Shown one piece after another: positions 1-7,147 of a stretch of 7,273 nt of DNA (its first letter is position 1; each line of letters starts with the position of its first letter). The notes under the pieces are model-generated. The model worked only from the letters and a program-made list of their open reading frames with translations, ran no database searches and was not told the origin of the DNA. The position numbers were made by a program, and so were the translations under genes. The stretch lies in the NCBI GenBank assembly GCA_025774865.1, contig JALGZO010000479.1, positions 1-7,273 on the forward strand. Direction: 5' to 3'. This DNA is from a bacterium (GTDB lineage: Bacteria > ARS69).

Positions 1-694
1 CGGCAACATCCTGTCGGAGGGAATGGCCCACTTCTCCACCGTGCTCCTCTTCGGCGACGTGAAGGGCGAAGAGAAACGGATCGAGTTCTGCAAGCGCATC
101 GAGGAGAATTACGGCGACCGGCGGAGCGTGGACACGGAGAAGCCGCTCGTCCGGACGATGGGTGACAAGGCGTCGGACACGACCGTGATGTACGACAAGG
201 GCGGCTGGGTCTTCTGGATGCTGCACCGGCTGATGGGCGAGGAGGCGAGCTTCGCCGGCATCCGCGATTTCATCGAGCAGTACCAGGGCGGCCCCGACTT
301 CCCGGTGCTGCAGGACTACGTTCGGGTGATGCGCACTCACGCGCCGGATCCGGCGGCATTCGACGACTTCGTCGACCAGTGGTTCTTCGACGTGGTCGTA
401 CCCGAGTACGTGATTTCGGATGCGAAACGGGAGGAGACGGACAGCGGTTGGACCGTCACCGCGCGCGTCGAGAATCGGGGCACCGGGCGCATGCCGGTGG
501 AATGGTGCGCGTACCAAGGCGACCGATTCGGCGAGGACGCCGACTGGCGGGACGCTCGGATCACAGTGACCCTCGACGCCGGGGAGAGCCGGGAGATCAC
601 GGTCGGCTGCGATTTCGAGCCGGAGAAGATCGTCGTGGATCCGGACGCCGTGGTCCTGATGCTGGAACGCCAGAAGGCGGAGGCGGACCTGTAA
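1..694 (+). CDS. M1-family zinc aminopeptidase, C-terminal part (5' end outside window)
   Basis: The reading frame is open from base 2 to a TAA at 692-694, giving 230 residues. It opens with N-I-L-S-E-G-M-A-H-F, which matches the M1 (gluzincin) segment whose Glu (codon 17-19) is the third zinc ligand downstream of HEXXH; the HEXXH itself lies off the window. A second family hallmark follows at 191-193: the Tyr of M-Y-D-K-G-G-W-V-F-W-M-L, equivalent to the transition-state Tyr in Y-E-K-G of LTA4 hydrolase and aminopeptidase N. A helical stretch ends near D-Q-W-F-F-D-V-V-V-P-E-Y (about 377-407). After it comes a roughly 90-residue, probably beta-rich tail without the long HEAT-like domain of PepN. 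This tail resembles proteins that fuse an ABC-2 permease to an M1 peptidase, but the N-terminus is needed to tell. The internal ATG at 23 is not a start, because the zinc-ligand Glu lies before it. The family role is release of N-terminal residues from peptides; the substrate is unknown. Confidence 0.88.
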   Translation, partial: GNILSEGMAHFSTVLLFGDVKGEEKRIEFCKRIEENYGDRRSVDTEKPLVRTMGDKASDTTVMYDKGGWVFWMLHRLMGEEASFAGIRDFIEQYQGGPDFPVLQDYVRVMRTHAPDPAAFDDFVDQWFFDVVVPEYVISDAKREETDSGWTVTARVENRGTGRMPVEWCAYQGDRFGEDADWRDARITVTLDAGESREITVGCDFEPEKIVVDPDAVVLMLERQKAEADL

Positions 695-911: not shown

Positions 912-1748
912 ATGGCCACGCGGCAGCTCTCGACTCTCGGTGGGCATCCTGAAGGGTTCGCCGCGACGATGCGGGCCGATCGCTGGTGGGTCGCACCCGC
1001 GTCCACCGTTTTCGGACTGCTCGCATTCGCCGTCTACGTCACCTGGGCGGCCTTCCAGGGCGAGCACTACTACGCGTCTCCGTACCTGAGCCCCCTCTAT
1101 TCGCCCGTGATCTACCTGGATCCGTCGGCGGCCGGCGCCGCCCCCCTGTGGCACGTCTGGTTCAAGGGGCCGTGGCCGGCCTGGTGGCCCGACTGGCTGC
1201 CCCGCTCGCCGGCGTTCTTCATCCTCGTCTTTCCGGGCGTGTTCCGTTTCACCTGCTACTACTACCGCAAGGCCTACTACCGATCGTTCACGGCATCGCC
1301 GCCGGCTTGTGCCGTGAGTCCGGGAGCGACCGGCCGAGCGTACAGAGGAGAGACCGCCTGGCTCATCTTCCAGAACTTGCACCGTTACACGATGTACTTC
1401 GCGGTCGCCTTCATCTTCATCCTCACGTTCGACGCGCTCGCCGCTTTCTTCCACGACGGCCGGTTCGGGATCGGGGTGGGGACGGTGGTGCTGCTCCTGA
1501 ACGCGGTCTTGCTCGGCGCGTACACGTTCGGGTGCCACTCGCTCCGCCACCTGGTCGGAGGTCACGACGACTGTATGTCCTGCGGGAAGGCCACTTTGCG
1601 GCTCAAGCTCTGGCGCGGCTCCAGCGCGCTCAACGTGAATCACATGAAGTTCGCGTGGGCGAGCCTGATCTGGGTAGGGCTCACCGATCTCTACGTGCGT
1701 CTCGTCTCGATGGGCGTGATTCACGATCTCAACACCTGGGGTCATTGA
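912..1748 (+). CDS. sdhC: Succinate dehydrogenase/fumarate reductase membrane anchor (SdhC, five-helix Sdh1 type)
   Basis: This 278-residue integral membrane subunit anchors SdhAB and exchanges electrons with quinone. Five hydrophobic segments are visible at about 29-48, 100-118, 159-180, 185-207 and 244-265, so it resembles the single-anchor SdhC of mycobacterial Sdh1 (Rv0249c-like) rather than an SdhC/SdhD pair; no sdhD follows. Family-like blocks are F-T-C-Y-Y-Y-R-K-A-Y-Y-R-S-F (113-126), P-P-A-C-A-V (130-135), N-L-H-R-Y (155-159), G-C-H-S-L-R-H (207-213) and T-D-L-Y-V-R-L (258-264). Possible metal or haem ligands are C115, C133, H157, C208, H209, H213, H218, C221, C224 and H244. The mycobacterial Sdh1 anchor is reported to hold a membrane-embedded Rieske-type cluster; whether this one does is inference. 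A Trp-rich loop (80-95) lies between helices 1 and 2. It is first in the operon, with sdhA starting 13 bases after its stop. Confidence 0.9.
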   Translation: MATRQLSTLGGHPEGFAATMRADRWWVAPASTVFGLLAFAVYVTWAAFQGEHYYASPYLSPLYSPVIYLDPSAAGAAPLWHVWFKGPWPAWWPDWLPRSPAFFILVFPGVFRFTCYYYRKAYYRSFTASPPACAVSPGATGRAYRGETAWLIFQNLHRYTMYFAVAFIFILTFDALAAFFHDGRFGIGVGTVVLLLNAVLLGAYTFGCHSLRHLVGGHDDCMSCGKATLRLKLWRGSSALNVNHMKFAWASLIWVGLTDLYVRLVSMGVIHDLNTWGH

Positions 1749-1761
1749 CCGAGGCCGCGCG

Positions 1762-3609
1762 ATGAACGTCTCCGAGATTCAGACCATCGAGCACGACGTC
1801 GTCGTCATCGGGGCGGGCGGTGCGGGACTCCGGGCGGCGATCGAGTGCAGCGCGCAGGGCCTCGACACGGGGCTCCTCTCCAAGAGCCTCCTCGGCAAGG
1901 CGCACACCGTCATGGCCGAGGGCGGGATGGCGGCCGCGCTCGGCAACGTCGATTCGCGGGACAACTGGCAGATCCACTTCCGGGACACGATGCGCGGCGG
2001 CAAGTTTCTCAACGACTGGCGGCTCGCGGAGATTCATGCTCGAGAGGCGCCGGAGCGCGTGAACGAGCTCGAAGAGTGGGGAGCCGTCTTCGACCGGACG
2101 AAGGACGGACTCATCAGCCAGCGCAACTTCGGCGGGCACCGATACCCACGGCTCGCGCACGTGGGGGATCGCACCGGTCTCGAGCTCATACGGACGCTCC
2201 AGGACCACGGCGTGCACCAGGGGATCGCGATGCACATGGAGTGTGCGGCGCTCGCGCTCCTCAAGGACGGCGAGCGCATTGCCGGCGTCGCGGCGTACTG
2301 GCGTGAGACCGGCCGGTTCGTGATCTTCCGAACGAAGGCGGTCATCCTGGCCACGGGGGGCGCGGGCAAGGCCTGGCGCGTCACGAGCAACTCGTGGGAG
2401 TACACGGGCGACGGTCTCGCGATGGCGTACGACGCCGGGGCGGAGCTCATGGACCTCGAGTTCACACAGTTCCACCCGACCGGCATGGTGTGGCCGCTCT
2501 CGGTGCGCGGCATCCTCGTCACCGAGGGCGTCCGCGGCGACGGTGGTATCTTGAAGAACTCCGAGGGCGACCGCTTCATGTTCGACTACATCCCCGAGCG
2601 ATTCGCGGCGGAGACCGCCGACTCGGTCGAGGAGGCCACGAAGTGGCTCGACGCGGTGGAGGGTGCGCGTCGCCCGCCCGAGCTCCTGACGCGAGACGTG
2701 GTTGCCCGCGCGATCACGGCCGAGGTGAAGGCCGGTCGCGGCTCGCCGCACGGCGGCGTGTTCCTCGACATCGCTTCTCAGCGGCCGGCCGACTTCATCA
2801 AGCGGAAGCTTCCGTCCATGTATCACCAGTTCCAGGAGCTCGCCGAGGTCGACATCACCGCGGAGTCGATGGAAGTCGGGCCGACGCTCCATTACTTCAT
2901 GGGCGGCGTGCGCGTGGAGTCGGAGTCGCAGCAGAGCCGCGTGCCGGGGCTCTTCGCGTGCGGGGAGTGCGCCGCGGGGCTCCACGGCGCGAATCGTCTC
3001 GGTGGCAACTCGCTCTCCGACCTGATCGTGCTCGGCACCCGGGCCGGCCTCGGGGCGAAGGAGTACGTGGATCGTCTGTCGGCGATGCCGACGCCCGACG
3101 ACGCGCAGATCGAGAGCATCTACCGCGACGCCACGGATATCCTGAACCGCGATTCCGGAGCGAACCCCTATCTCCTGCACGAAAAACTGCAGGACGTGAT
3201 GGGCGACAGCGTCGGGATCGTGCGTCACGCCGACGATCTACAGCGCGGGATCGAGGAGCTCGGGAAACTCCAGCGAGAATCCGAGACACTCCACGCCGTG
3301 GGCACGAGCCAGTTCAACCCCGGCTGGAACCAGGCCATCGCGTTGCGGTCGCTCTTGACGGTGTCGGAGGCGGTCGCGCGATCGGCGCTGGCCCGGGAGG
3401 AGAGCCGCGGCGCGCACACGCGCCTCGACTTCGAAGGCGAGCGCGACGAAGGACTGTCGTACAACGTGGTCATTCGCCGGGCCACCGACGGCCGGATGGA
3501 GGTCGAGAAGCTGGCGCGGCCCGAACCGCCGGCGGAGCTCGCCGAGATCGCTCACGCCTCGATCGAGGACCTGGAAGCCGGTCGCGTCGGTACCCAGGCG
3601 GGCTCCTGA
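1762..3609 (+). CDS. sdhA: Succinate dehydrogenase/fumarate reductase flavoprotein subunit (SdhA)
   Basis: This 615-residue catalytic subunit (E. coli SdhA is 588) interconverts succinate and fumarate on the cytoplasmic face of complex II. The FAD-binding Rossmann motif G-A-G-G-A-G is at 17-22. H48 in A-H-T-V-M-A-E-G-G matches the His that covalently binds FAD. Active-site residues are in place: Q-F-H-P-T-G at 236-241 (H238), T-E-G at 254-256, the proton-shuttle Arg in R-D-V-V-A-R (R316), H377 in H-Y-F-M-G-G, and R412 in N-R-L-G-G-N-S-L. E53 sits where E. coli FrdA has Glu49 and SdhA has Gln50, so the flavin site is fumarate-reductase-like at that position; the direction of catalysis cannot be read from sequence alone. 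The capping domain and a C-terminal helical domain (about 450-550) are complete. The ATG at 1762 follows GAGG (1751-1754) by 7 bases. The TGA overlaps the sdhB ATG by one base, implying translational coupling. Confidence 0.97.
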   Translation: MNVSEIQTIEHDVVVIGAGGAGLRAAIECSAQGLDTGLLSKSLLGKAHTVMAEGGMAAALGNVDSRDNWQIHFRDTMRGGKFLNDWRLAEIHAREAPERVNELEEWGAVFDRTKDGLISQRNFGGHRYPRLAHVGDRTGLELIRTLQDHGVHQGIAMHMECAALALLKDGERIAGVAAYWRETGRFVIFRTKAVILATGGAGKAWRVTSNSWEYTGDGLAMAYDAGAELMDLEFTQFHPTGMVWPLSVRGILVTEGVRGDGGILKNSEGDRFMFDYIPERFAAETADSVEEATKWLDAVEGARRPPELLTRDVVARAITAEVKAGRGSPHGGVFLDIASQRPADFIKRKLPSMYHQFQELAEVDITAESMEVGPTLHYFMGGVRVESESQQSRVPGLFACGECAAGLHGANRLGGNSLSDLIVLGTRAGLGAKEYVDRLSAMPTPDDAQIESIYRDATDILNRDSGANPYLLHEKLQDVMGDSVGIVRHADDLQRGIEELGKLQRESETLHAVGTSQFNPGWNQAIALRSLLTVSEAVARSALAREESRGAHTRLDFEGERDEGLSYNVVIRRATDGRMEVEKLARPEPPAELAEIAHASIEDLEAGRVGTQAGS

Positions 3610-4382
3610 TGGCCGGGCGGCGCACTTTCCGGGTCTGGCGCGGCGACCCCCAGGGTGGCGAGTTCCGCACGTACGAGGTCGAGGTCGACGAGGGCATGGT
3701 GGTCCTCGACGTGATCTTCCGGATCCAGGCGGAACAGGCACCCGACCTCGCCGTACGCTGGAACTGCAAGGCCGGCAAGTGCGGTTCGTGCAGCATGGAA
3801 ATCAACGGGAGACCACGCCTCGGCTGCATGACCCGCATGAACGTCTTCGAGGCCCACGAGACCGTCACGGTGCAGCCTCTCAAGACGTTCCCGAATGTGA
3901 AGGACCTCGTCACCGACGTTTCGTGGAACTTCGATCAGAATCTGCGGATCCGGCCGCTCAAGCCGAGACCTCCCGGTCCCGACGGCCGGCATCGAATGTA
4001 TCAAGAAGACATCGATCGAGTGCAGGAGTTCCGCAAATGTATCGAGTGCTACCTCTGCCAGAACGTCTGTCACGTGCTCCGGGATCGGGACGGGCGCGAC
4101 CGGTTCATCGGCCCCCGCTTCATGATCCGCCTGGCGGGTCTCGAGATGAATCCCCTGGACGAAGACGATCGTATCCCCGGGATCGTCCGGGAGTTCGGCT
4201 CGGGCATGTGCAACATCACGAAGTGCTGTAGCGACGTCTGCCCCGAGCACATCAGCATCACCGACAACGGAATCATCCCGTTGAAGGAGCGCGTCGTCGA
4301 CCGCTACTACGATCCCATCGCGTGGCTGAAGCGGAAGCTCTTCGGCGACGGCAAGCGAGCCGAGCAGACCTCGGGGAGGTAA
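3609..4382 (+). CDS. sdhB: Succinate dehydrogenase/fumarate reductase iron-sulfur subunit (SdhB)
   Basis: This 257-residue electron-transfer subunit carries electrons from FAD to quinone. The N-terminal plant-type ferredoxin domain binds [2Fe-2S] through C53, C58, C61 and C73. The C-terminal domain carries C144, C147, C150 and C211, predicted [4Fe-4S] ligands, and C154, C201 and C207, predicted [3Fe-4S] ligands. The spacings 154-201-207-211 equal those of E. coli SdhB 159-206-212-216. An extra Cys (C206) precedes C207 in C-N-I-T-K-C-C-S-D-V-C-P-E-H-I; this block and the V-R-W-N-C-K-A-G-K-C-G-S-C-S block closely match the mycobacterial Sdh1 iron-sulfur subunit. The ATG at 3609 shares one base with the sdhA TGA and lacks a strong Shine-Dalgarno sequence, so reinitiation after sdhA is likely. 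The frame is open upstream to 2394, but that stretch is the +1 shadow of sdhA. The 3' end contains the ribosome binding site of the next gene. Confidence 0.96.
   Translation: MAGRRTFRVWRGDPQGGEFRTYEVEVDEGMVVLDVIFRIQAEQAPDLAVRWNCKAGKCGSCSMEINGRPRLGCMTRMNVFEAHETVTVQPLKTFPNVKDLVTDVSWNFDQNLRIRPLKPRPPGPDGRHRMYQEDIDRVQEFRKCIECYLCQNVCHVLRDRDGRDRFIGPRFMIRLAGLEMNPLDEDDRIPGIVREFGSGMCNITKCCSDVCPEHISITDNGIIPLKERVVDRYYDPIAWLKRKLFGDGKRAEQTSGR
4373..4379 (+). promoter_or_regulatory. Strong Shine-Dalgarno inside the 3' end of sdhB
   Basis: GGGGAGG at 4373-4379 lies 7 bases before ATG 4387 and overlaps the last sense codons of sdhB. It is among the strongest ribosome binding sites in the window and ties translation of the TPR gene to that of complex II. 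Confidence 0.7.
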
Positions 4383-4979: not shown

Positions 4980-5975
4980 ATGAGACCGATTGATCTGCGC
5001 CACGGCATCCTCAGCCTGATGACGAGCCTCGCTCTCGCCGGATGCCTCCACGACGATGGCTCACCCACCCCGACCCTGGACAATGTCTGGCCGAACGAAG
5101 ACGGCGCTCAGTGGACGTACGATCTGACGGTGCGGCAGTGGGGCGAGAGCGTCTTCGGAACCGCGTACGACAGCGCCGACGAGGTTCCGGGGGCACCTTC
5201 ACTGAACGCGGTCGCCGCCTTGCTCGGAAACCACCCGATCGGCGAGCCGCTCGAGGCGGCCGAGGGAGAGTATCGGATCCGGTTCGAGGGGACGATCACG
5301 ACGCAGTCGGGAGCGACCGGACAGCACCTGGTGGAGGAGATCGAGGTCCCGCCGGTGCCGGTCCGCGACGCCGGAGCGGCTGATCCGCTCCTGACGCGGC
5401 TCTGGTTTGCGCGCCCCGATCTGAGAGCGAGGATGCTCTCGGAAGGTCTGCTGCGCGCGCCGCCGTCGGGCGACGAGTGGGCCGGTCCGTTCCCGATCTT
5501 CGTCAGCGGCTACGCGTGGGAAAAGACGCGCGACCGGATCGGCGGCTACGGCGACCTGGACCGGGAGCTCTCGTGGATGTACCTGGAATCCCGTCTCACG
5601 CCCGGCCACGAGTTCTCGCTACAGCTCGTTCCTTCGATCGCGAACAACGTCTTTCTGCACGCCCGTATCCTGCCGCGCCGTTCGGTGGAGACCACCGCCG
5701 GACGCTACCGGAACGTCGTCGAGTGTCTTTACGTCGTGGACTTCGGTGTCTCGGAGGCGACGAATGGTGTGGGGGAGCCGCTGGGGTATTACGGGGTGTT
5801 CAACTACGGCACCGTCGCCTACGCGCCTGAAGTGGGGCCGGTCGACAGCTATGAGCGACTCTTCCTCGATACCGGAGCGCCTTCATCCCCGGGGTGGGGC
5901 GATCTCGCGCTGGATCTGATCGAGCGTCGCCCCCCCGACAGGACTCCGTCTGCCATCCGAGCCACTTCCCGGTGA
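4980..5975 (+). CDS. Predicted lipoprotein of unknown function
   Basis: The 331-residue product begins with a lipoprotein signal peptide: R2 and R7 in the n-region, a hydrophobic core at 10-20 and the lipobox L19-A-G-C22. C22 would be the acylated residue. The residue after it is Leu, not Asp, which by the E. coli rule favours the outer membrane. I do not recognise the mature domain. It begins with N-V-W-P-N-E-D-G-A-Q-W-T-Y-D-L (35-49), a pattern seen at the start of many uncharacterised secreted proteins, and has a late block G-R-Y-R-N-V-V-E-C (241-249) followed by Y-A-P-E-V-G-P-V (281-288), suggesting beta-rich architecture. ATG 4980 is chosen because it supplies the charged n-region; the next Met (14) would leave too short a signal. 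The 3' 127 bases overlap tag on the opposite strand. It starts 41 bases after the TPR stop, so it could be read through from the SDH operon or from its own promoter. Confidence 0.8.
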   Translation: MRPIDLRHGILSLMTSLALAGCLHDDGSPTPTLDNVWPNEDGAQWTYDLTVRQWGESVFGTAYDSADEVPGAPSLNAVAALLGNHPIGEPLEAAEGEYRIRFEGTITTQSGATGQHLVEEIEVPPVPVRDAGAADPLLTRLWFARPDLRARMLSEGLLRAPPSGDEWAGPFPIFVSGYAWEKTRDRIGGYGDLDRELSWMYLESRLTPGHEFSLQLVPSIANNVFLHARILPRRSVETTAGRYRNVVECLYVVDFGVSEATNGVGEPLGYYGVFNYGTVAYAPEVGPVDSYERLFLDTGAPSSPGWGDLALDLIERRPPDRTPSAIRATSR

Positions 5976-6532
5976 CGAAAGCAGCCGACGACGTGGTCGT
6001 TCACCATGCCGGTCGCCTGCATGAAGGCGTAGCAGATCGTCGGCCCGACAAAGGTGAATCCGCGCTTCTTCAAGCTCTTGCTCATCGCACGTGATTCGTC
6101 GGTCTCCGCCGGCAGCTCCTTCAGGGACCGGAAGCGATTTCGGATCGGCTTCCCTCCGACGAAGCTCCAGAGGTACTCGTCGAACGAACCGATCTCCTTC
6201 TTCACCGCCAGGAACGCCTTCGCGTTGCGCACGGTTCCTTCGACCTTCAGGCGGTTGCGCACGATGCCGGGGTCTTTCAGAAGCCGCTCGAGCTTCGGCT
6301 TCCGGTAGCGGGCGATCTTCACGGGATCGAAGCGGTCGAAAACCCTCCGATAGTTCTCGCGCTTCTTGAGAATGGTGATCCAGCTGAGCCCGGCCTGCGC
6401 GCCCTCGAGGATCAGAAACTCGAAGAGGGGTCGATCGTCGTGGACCGGGACGCCCCACTCCTCGTCATGGTAAGCGAGGTACAGGGGATCGGAGCCCGCC
6501 CACTCGCAGCGCTTCCTCGAACCAGACGCCAT
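5849..6532 (-). CDS. tag: DNA-3-methyladenine glycosylase I (Tag)
   Basis: This base-excision repair enzyme removes 3-methyladenine from alkylated DNA in the cytoplasm. The 227 residues align with E. coli Tag (187 aa) with an offset of 5. The structural zinc ligands C9, H22, H180 and C184 match C4, H17, H175 and C179 with identical spacing. Y21, E43 and W51 match the base-pocket residues Tyr16, Glu38 and Trp46. Conserved blocks include A-Y-H-D-E-E-W-G-V-P, L-E-G-A-Q-A-G-L-S-W, I-L-K-K-R-E-N-Y and N-D-H-V-V-G-C. The start is supported by AGGAGGG on the minus strand (about 6536-6542), a few bases before the ATG. After C184 there are 43 further residues, against 8 in E. coli; this Arg/Ser-rich tail overlaps the convergent lipoprotein gene and looks like an extension with no conserved role. 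The gene is divergent from the CYTH gene, 39 bases away. Confidence 0.96.
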   Translation of the reverse strand: MASGSRKRCEWAGSDPLYLAYHDEEWGVPVHDDRPLFEFLILEGAQAGLSWITILKKRENYRRVFDRFDPVKIARYRKPKLERLLKDPGIVRNRLKVEGTVRNAKAFLAVKKEIGSFDEYLWSFVGGKPIRNRFRSLKELPAETDESRAMSKSLKKRGFTFVGPTICYAFMQATGMVNDHVVGCFRHREVARMADGVLSGGRRSIRSSARSPHPGDEGAPVSRKSRS

Positions 6533-6571: not shown

Positions 6572-7147
6572 ATGCCACGAAACGTCGAATGGAAAGGAAA
6601 GCTGCCCGACCCGTCGGAGGCGGCCGCGCGGGCGGTGGCGCTCGGCGCCGAGCTTCAGTCGGTCGAGCGGCAGAGCGACACGTATTTCCGGGTTCCGCAA
6701 GGACGGTTGAAGCTGCGGCGGCGTTGGGTGCCGGATCACGTGCCCGCGGCGGCGATTCTGCCGGCAGGGGCCGGGGAGTCGTTTGACCGCGAGCTTCCCC
6801 CGGAGCTCATCGCCTACCGGCGCCCCGATCACCCGGGCGCCCGGGTCAGCGACTACGTGCGGGTGTGCCTGGAAGAGGGCTCCGACATGGTGGCGCTGTT
6901 CGAAGCGGCGGTCGGCGTGGACGTCGAAGTCGAGAAGACGCGGCATGTGTTTGTGCACGATCGAGTGCGCATTCACCTCGACGACGTGAAGGAGTGCGGC
7001 ACGTTTCTCGAGCTCGAGGCGATCGTCGACGAACGGTGCGACGACGAGAGAGCGTCGGCCAAGATCCGGCGTCTGCTGGAGCACTTCGGGCTCGCTCTGG
7101 AGTCGTCGATTCCGGGCTCGTACCGGGAGCTCGTGCGCGGTGGGTGA
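6572..7147 (+). CDS. CYTH-domain protein (class IV adenylate cyclase / triphosphatase-like)
   Basis: This 191-residue cytoplasmic protein is one CYTH fold, a beta-tunnel that binds triphosphates and divalent metal. Visible motifs are N-V-E-W-K (4-8) in place of E-x-E-x-K, Q-S-D-T-Y-F (34-39), G-R-L-K-L-R (44-49), Y-R-R (82-84), V-E-K-T-R (120-124), R-I-H-L-D-D-V (133-139), F-L-E-L-E (145-149) and a C-terminal G-S-Y-R-E-L (182-187). E6, K8, the Arg/Lys set and E147/E149 fit nucleotide and metal binding. The first Glu of E-x-E-x-K is Asn, a change also common in bacterial CyaB-like proteins. A Pro/Ala-rich stretch of about 29 residues (51-79) is inserted between G-R-L-K-L-R and L-I-A-Y-R-R. Cyclase and inorganic or thiamine triphosphatase activity cannot be told apart from sequence. 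ATG 6572 is chosen because it begins directly before the first CYTH strand; the frame is open back to 6440, but that part lies antisense to tag. No clear Shine-Dalgarno is present. Confidence 0.87.
   Translation: MPRNVEWKGKLPDPSEAAARAVALGAELQSVERQSDTYFRVPQGRLKLRRRWVPDHVPAAAILPAGAGESFDRELPPELIAYRRPDHPGARVSDYVRVCLEEGSDMVALFEAAVGVDVEVEKTRHVFVHDRVRIHLDDVKECGTFLELEAIVDERCDDERASAKIRRLLEHFGLALESSIPGSYRELVRGG

Follow-up and report, generated by a model that had tools for sequence, protein, structure and literature searches.

The succinate dehydrogenase membrane anchor (SdhC) encoded in the window, the 7,273-nucleotide stretch of DNA that was analysed, is a type F (mycobacterial Sdh1-like) anchor. It carries a cysteine pair, C221-x-x-C224, which looks from homologous sequences like a genuine, lineage-restricted and optional feature of type F SdhC. 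On balance, we favour the pair as an accessory dithiol or metal clip on a cytoplasmic loop, characteristic of a loop-extended sub-type of the family.

Type F succinate dehydrogenase anchor

Sdh1 belongs to class F of complex II, which has a single six-helix anchor and a membrane Rieske cluster (2023 review, PMC10238741). The window contains one operon with the order sdhC-sdhA-sdhB, all on the plus strand. The sdhC gene (912-1748) encodes the 278-aa single membrane-anchor subunit, sdhA (1762-3609) the flavoprotein subunit (NCBIfam NF005866/PRK07803, 943 bits against a cut-off of 819), and sdhB (3609-4382) the iron-sulfur subunit (NCBIfam NF009052/PRK12386, 409.8 bits against a cut-off of 256). 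SdhC matched no family in Pfam or NCBIfam, hence it has no CCG domain, and no Rieske domain was detected. An Rfam search of the window gave no match.

The first-pass annotation had likened this subunit to mycobacterial Sdh1 SdhC, and the likeness was borne out over the whole length of the anchor. SdhC matched Mycobacterium smegmatis Sdh1 SdhC (7d6v_C) with an E-value of 1.4e-53 over residues 18-278, and the predicted fold matched the same chain with a Z-score of 23.0 (254 of 264 residues aligned). The structure was predicted with 78 homologues as input (mean pLDDT 84). Other structural matches of the model, to TRPV channels and cytochrome b, were discounted because their Z-scores of 7.1 or less are at the level expected of helical bundles. 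Six anchor helices are predicted (27-49, 106-126, 148-177, 189-206, 229-242, and 244-267) besides short ones such as 209-216; helix 229-242 is probably interfacial in the model. The anchor accompanies SdhA and SdhB without a second cytochrome-b-type anchor, as in M. smegmatis. SdhC is thus of a rare anchor kind that is reported to hold a [2Fe-2S] Rieske-type cluster within the membrane, for which candidate ligands occur in the sequence. An Sdh_cyt (PF01127) anchor was not found in the genome that carries the operon (93% complete) by a search whose control was positive in 7 of 14 genomes, and SdhA relatives elsewhere in this genome are distant only; therefore, the genome has one recognisable succinate dehydrogenase.

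Class E complex II anchors are described as carrying Zn2+ and a 4Fe-4S cluster in amphipathic helices (PMC10238741), so that an additional metal site in an anchor of complex II would have a precedent. Assignment to this class (CCG-type, membrane-peripheral anchor) was rejected; SdhC has no cysteine-rich CCG domain or any other Pfam family, and five long transmembrane helices are predicted.

Conserved cysteine and histidine core

Conservation was assessed in 161 distinct SdhC sequences, including that of M. smegmatis. They were collected from GTDB contigs, plasmid records, and whole-genome searches of the window's own phylum and the phyla of six further loci: L055 (Acidobacteriota), L002 (Myxococcota), L041 (Planctomycetota), L059 (Bacteroidota), L032 (Verrucomicrobiota), and L030; phylum names follow the record titles. 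Translation of 912-1748 places cysteines at 115, 133, 208, 221, and 224 and histidines at 12, 52, 81, 157, 181, 209, 213, 218, 244, 271, and 278. These positions agree with the residue numbers of the first-pass annotation, and the codons of C208 (1533-1535) and C224 (1581-1583) both lie within the 1528-1590 segment that it had singled out.

Seven of these residues form a conserved core, all encoded on the plus strand: C115 (1254-1256) in transmembrane helix 2, C133 (1308-1310) in the predicted cytoplasmic loop after helix 2, H157 (1380-1382) in transmembrane helix 3, C208-H209 (1533-1538) at the end of transmembrane helix 4, H213 (1548-1550) in a short interfacial helix after helix 4, and H244 (1641-1643) at the start of transmembrane helix 5. 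C115, C133, H157, and H244, which had been proposed to be conserved, are each present in 161 of 161 homologues, as are C208 and H213. H209 is present in 160; the sole exception in the core is an asparagine (GCNSFRH) in one planctomycete genome (L039/L130/L221), which could be real or a sequencing error. All seven residues occur in M. smegmatis SdhC (PDB 7D6V/7D6X); this one mycobacterial enzyme was the sole type F complex II with a solved structure that the structure search returned.

The proposal that C208/H209 and the other conserved Cys/His could serve a Rieske-type cluster is consistent with this pattern, as the residues conserved in the 161 homologues suffice to build such a site. Part of the core should ligate the membrane [2Fe-2S] Rieske-type cluster. 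From conservation and helix positions, we infer that the ligands are C115, H157, C208, and H244, one from each of helices 2-5. Two Cys and two His are thus available, as in classical Rieske [2Fe-2S] proteins, but no Rieske domain was detected in SdhC and its candidate ligands are on separate membrane helices. The core outnumbers the four ligands that a Rieske-type cluster requires, which raises the specific question of what C133, H209, and H213 do. If C115, H157, C208, and H244 take the cluster, then C133 and H213 are left over as candidates for another site because they are invariant. Residues 125-136, including C133, are unplaced in the model (pLDDT under 50).

Distribution of the C221-x-x-C224 pair

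C208-H209, H213, H218, C221, and C224 place six Cys/His within 17 residues, in the loop that follows transmembrane helix 4. Shuffling the same protein gave this density in 0.8% of shuffles. A C-x-x-C motif somewhere in the protein appeared in 7% of shuffles and so is unremarkable alone; its conservation in homologues argues that it is not due to chance. The model confirms the location between helices 4 and 5: transmembrane helix 4 (189-206) is followed by the short helix 209-216, a loop, helix 229-242, and transmembrane helix 5 (244-267). The distribution of Lys/Arg would put this helix 4-5 loop on the cytoplasmic (SdhB) side.

The pair D220-C221-M-S-C224 (1569-1583, plus strand) has the consensus [DN]-C-[FYML]-[ST]-C and occurs in 97 of 161 homologues, a proportion to be read with the GTDB-contig search in mind, since one of its six patterns held the motif and its 80 loci may be pair-enriched. 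In the phylum-wide searches of whole genomes, for which the query was the full-length protein, 40 of 85 rows have the pair. The spacing is exactly two residues in 90 of the 97 pair-bearing sequences, which represent at least eight phyla. By record title, pair-bearing members occur in the window's own phylum and in Myxococcota, Bacteroidota, Planctomycetota, Acidobacteriota, Verrucomicrobiota, Armatimonadota, Lentisphaerota, Rhodothermota, Fidelibacterota, and others. The pair is absent from all three sampled Actinobacteria (M. smegmatis, Nocardia, and Nonomuraea), from Gemmatirosa, and, in this sample, from most Acidobacteriota and about half of Planctomycetota. M. smegmatis SdhC has RLKHFSK, two residues shorter and with no cysteine, where the present protein has HDDCMSCGK, and it has an extra cysteine in CHSCRH that is absent here. 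The first-pass annotation had described C221/C224 as a further pair that it could not place in the known model. This description holds, as the pair is conserved and the M. smegmatis protein is without it. Heme c attachment was rejected because SdhC has no CxxCH.

Conservation is concentrated on the two cysteines. In pair-bearing rows, entropy is 0.0 bits at 221 and 0.5 bits at 224, where the alignment accounts for part of the value, compared with 2-3.4 bits at flanking positions 218, 219, and 225-229; in pairless rows it exceeds 3 bits at both 221 and 224. The loop measured from the conserved Gly to the conserved Asn is 23-25 residues long with the pair and mostly 21 without it. H218 (1563-1565, plus strand) is variable in homologues, where it is mostly Arg, Lys, or Gly, and it lies outside any conserved site. 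Its proposed membership in a metal ligand set with C221 and C224 finds no support in the alignment, in which His occupies 218 in only 2 of the 97 pair-bearing sequences. Thus, the suggested co-occurrence of H218, C221, and C224 fails as a triad and stands for the two cysteines.

The pair has been gained or lost repeatedly. Trees built without the loop gave 10-11 changes of the trait, at least four of them forced by well-supported branches, and the pair is grouped on the tree, where 11 changes compare with 50 expected if the label were scattered. Rows that retain just one of the two cysteines are rare. Ten independent present/absent genome pairs (non-overlapping tree paths) were compared across SdhA, SdhB, and SdhC. 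C221 switches 10/0 and C224 8/0, but these residues themselves define the trait; the informative part is that no other Cys/His of the three subunits follows the pair, in a comparison of ten pairs that has limited power for co-varying partners. SdhB L175 accompanies the pair in six of ten, which may be chance with more than 1,100 columns tested. Pairless rows often have a single cysteine near position 236 (47%) or at 265 (53%), both rarer in pair-bearing rows; these cysteines are lineage-bound. Cluster ligands or a CxxC of this anchor were not mentioned in the literature found, a scope that excluded the PNAS 2021 Sdh1 paper and Karavaeva and Sousa's 2023 review, which may mention the CxxC.

Possible roles of the pair

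C221-x-x-C224 would form an accessory site in the cytoplasmic helix 4-5 loop, separate from the core, and would mark a large sub-type in which this loop has about three residues more. Together, the thiols may serve as a local clip on the side that faces SdhB, being either a dithiol/disulfide or a metal site completed by residues common to all members, for which C133 and/or H213 would be the best candidates. The pair would then be neither a ligand set of the obligatory cluster nor a step in a family-wide electron path. It lies outside the obligatory electron path because it is absent from M. smegmatis and others and no Cys/His in SdhA, SdhB, or SdhC switches with it. A cluster with four ligands of its own would be expected to bring more co-varying Cys/His, so a local dithiol/disulfide or a metal site that borrows invariant residues remains. 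These metal and dithiol versions of the clip are about equally likely.

Cytoplasmic CxxC pairs without a subsequent heme-attachment His are commonly metal ligands. On a tentative reading, C221, C224, and two invariant residues (C133 and either H213 or H209) may bind a structural Zn2+ or Fe where SdhB meets SdhC. The pair is of this commonly metal-binding type, it is all-or-nothing, and the invariant core supplies more residues than the four of a Rieske-type site. However, C133, H209, and H213 are equally invariant where the pair is absent, and therefore they have another role at least in pairless enzymes. A broader version, in which C221/C224 and invariant C133/H213 form, beside the Rieske-type cluster, a further metal or redox site that is new to the literature, tunes electron transfer to quinone, and was repeatedly gained or lost, seems rather doubtful to us.

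C221 and C224 could equally be a local redox-switching dithiol/disulfide that tunes or protects a nearby quinone or cluster site, a possibility in keeping with their gain and loss together without another Cys/His. Opposite charges at 221 and 224 occur in eight pairless rows against 4.4 in shuffled pairings (p = 0.03), a weak result that hints at a local i/i+3 contact. A disulfide would have to form in the normally reducing cytoplasm, which argues against it.

The pair is unlikely to join H218 or other residues in ligating a further iron-sulfur cluster by which the electron path would be extended. C208, H209, and H213 are near in sequence and the complex is already cluster-rich, but H218 is not conserved, and in SdhA, SdhB, and SdhC no further Cys/His comes or goes with the pair, a finding that is difficult to reconcile with an extra cluster that has its own ligands. 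The M. smegmatis enzyme, moreover, is an active type F dehydrogenase without it. Clustering on the tree and the many family members without the pair would fit a functionless lineage marker, but this is very improbable given that both cysteines are kept in 97 sequences while their flanks vary, and that they repeatedly change together.

The pair-bearing sub-type makes up about half of the sampled family and spans at least eight phyla, so a conserved site may be lacking from the solved structure.

Solitary anchors and neighbouring genes

Three genomes in or near Acidobacteriota have solitary type F SdhC genes with the CxxC and no adjoining sdhA or sdhB (L056, 1216-2037; L254, 7004-7852, the same as L089; and L255/L111). 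These copies retain all core Cys/His. In two of the three genomes there is, in addition, an entire sdhC-sdhA-sdhB operon with an SdhC that is without the full pair; in the third, SdhA is represented elsewhere by a distant relative only. The solitary copies may be alternative anchors or serve another enzyme; perhaps they instead reflect assembly breaks or are relics. A purely SdhB-facing role of the pair fits poorly with them because they stand without sdhA and sdhB.

Other genes in the window flank the operon. Upstream, 23-694 (plus strand) encodes the C-terminal portion of a protein that matches M1 peptidase weakly, with a score under the Pfam cut-off. Downstream, a 3-methyladenine DNA glycosylase I (Tag) gene (5849-6532, minus strand) converges with a gene that encodes an unknown protein of secreted type (4980-5975, plus strand) and overlaps its 3' end by about 127 bases. 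The last gene (6572-7144, plus strand) encodes a CYTH-domain protein (triphosphatase or class IV adenylate cyclase-like).
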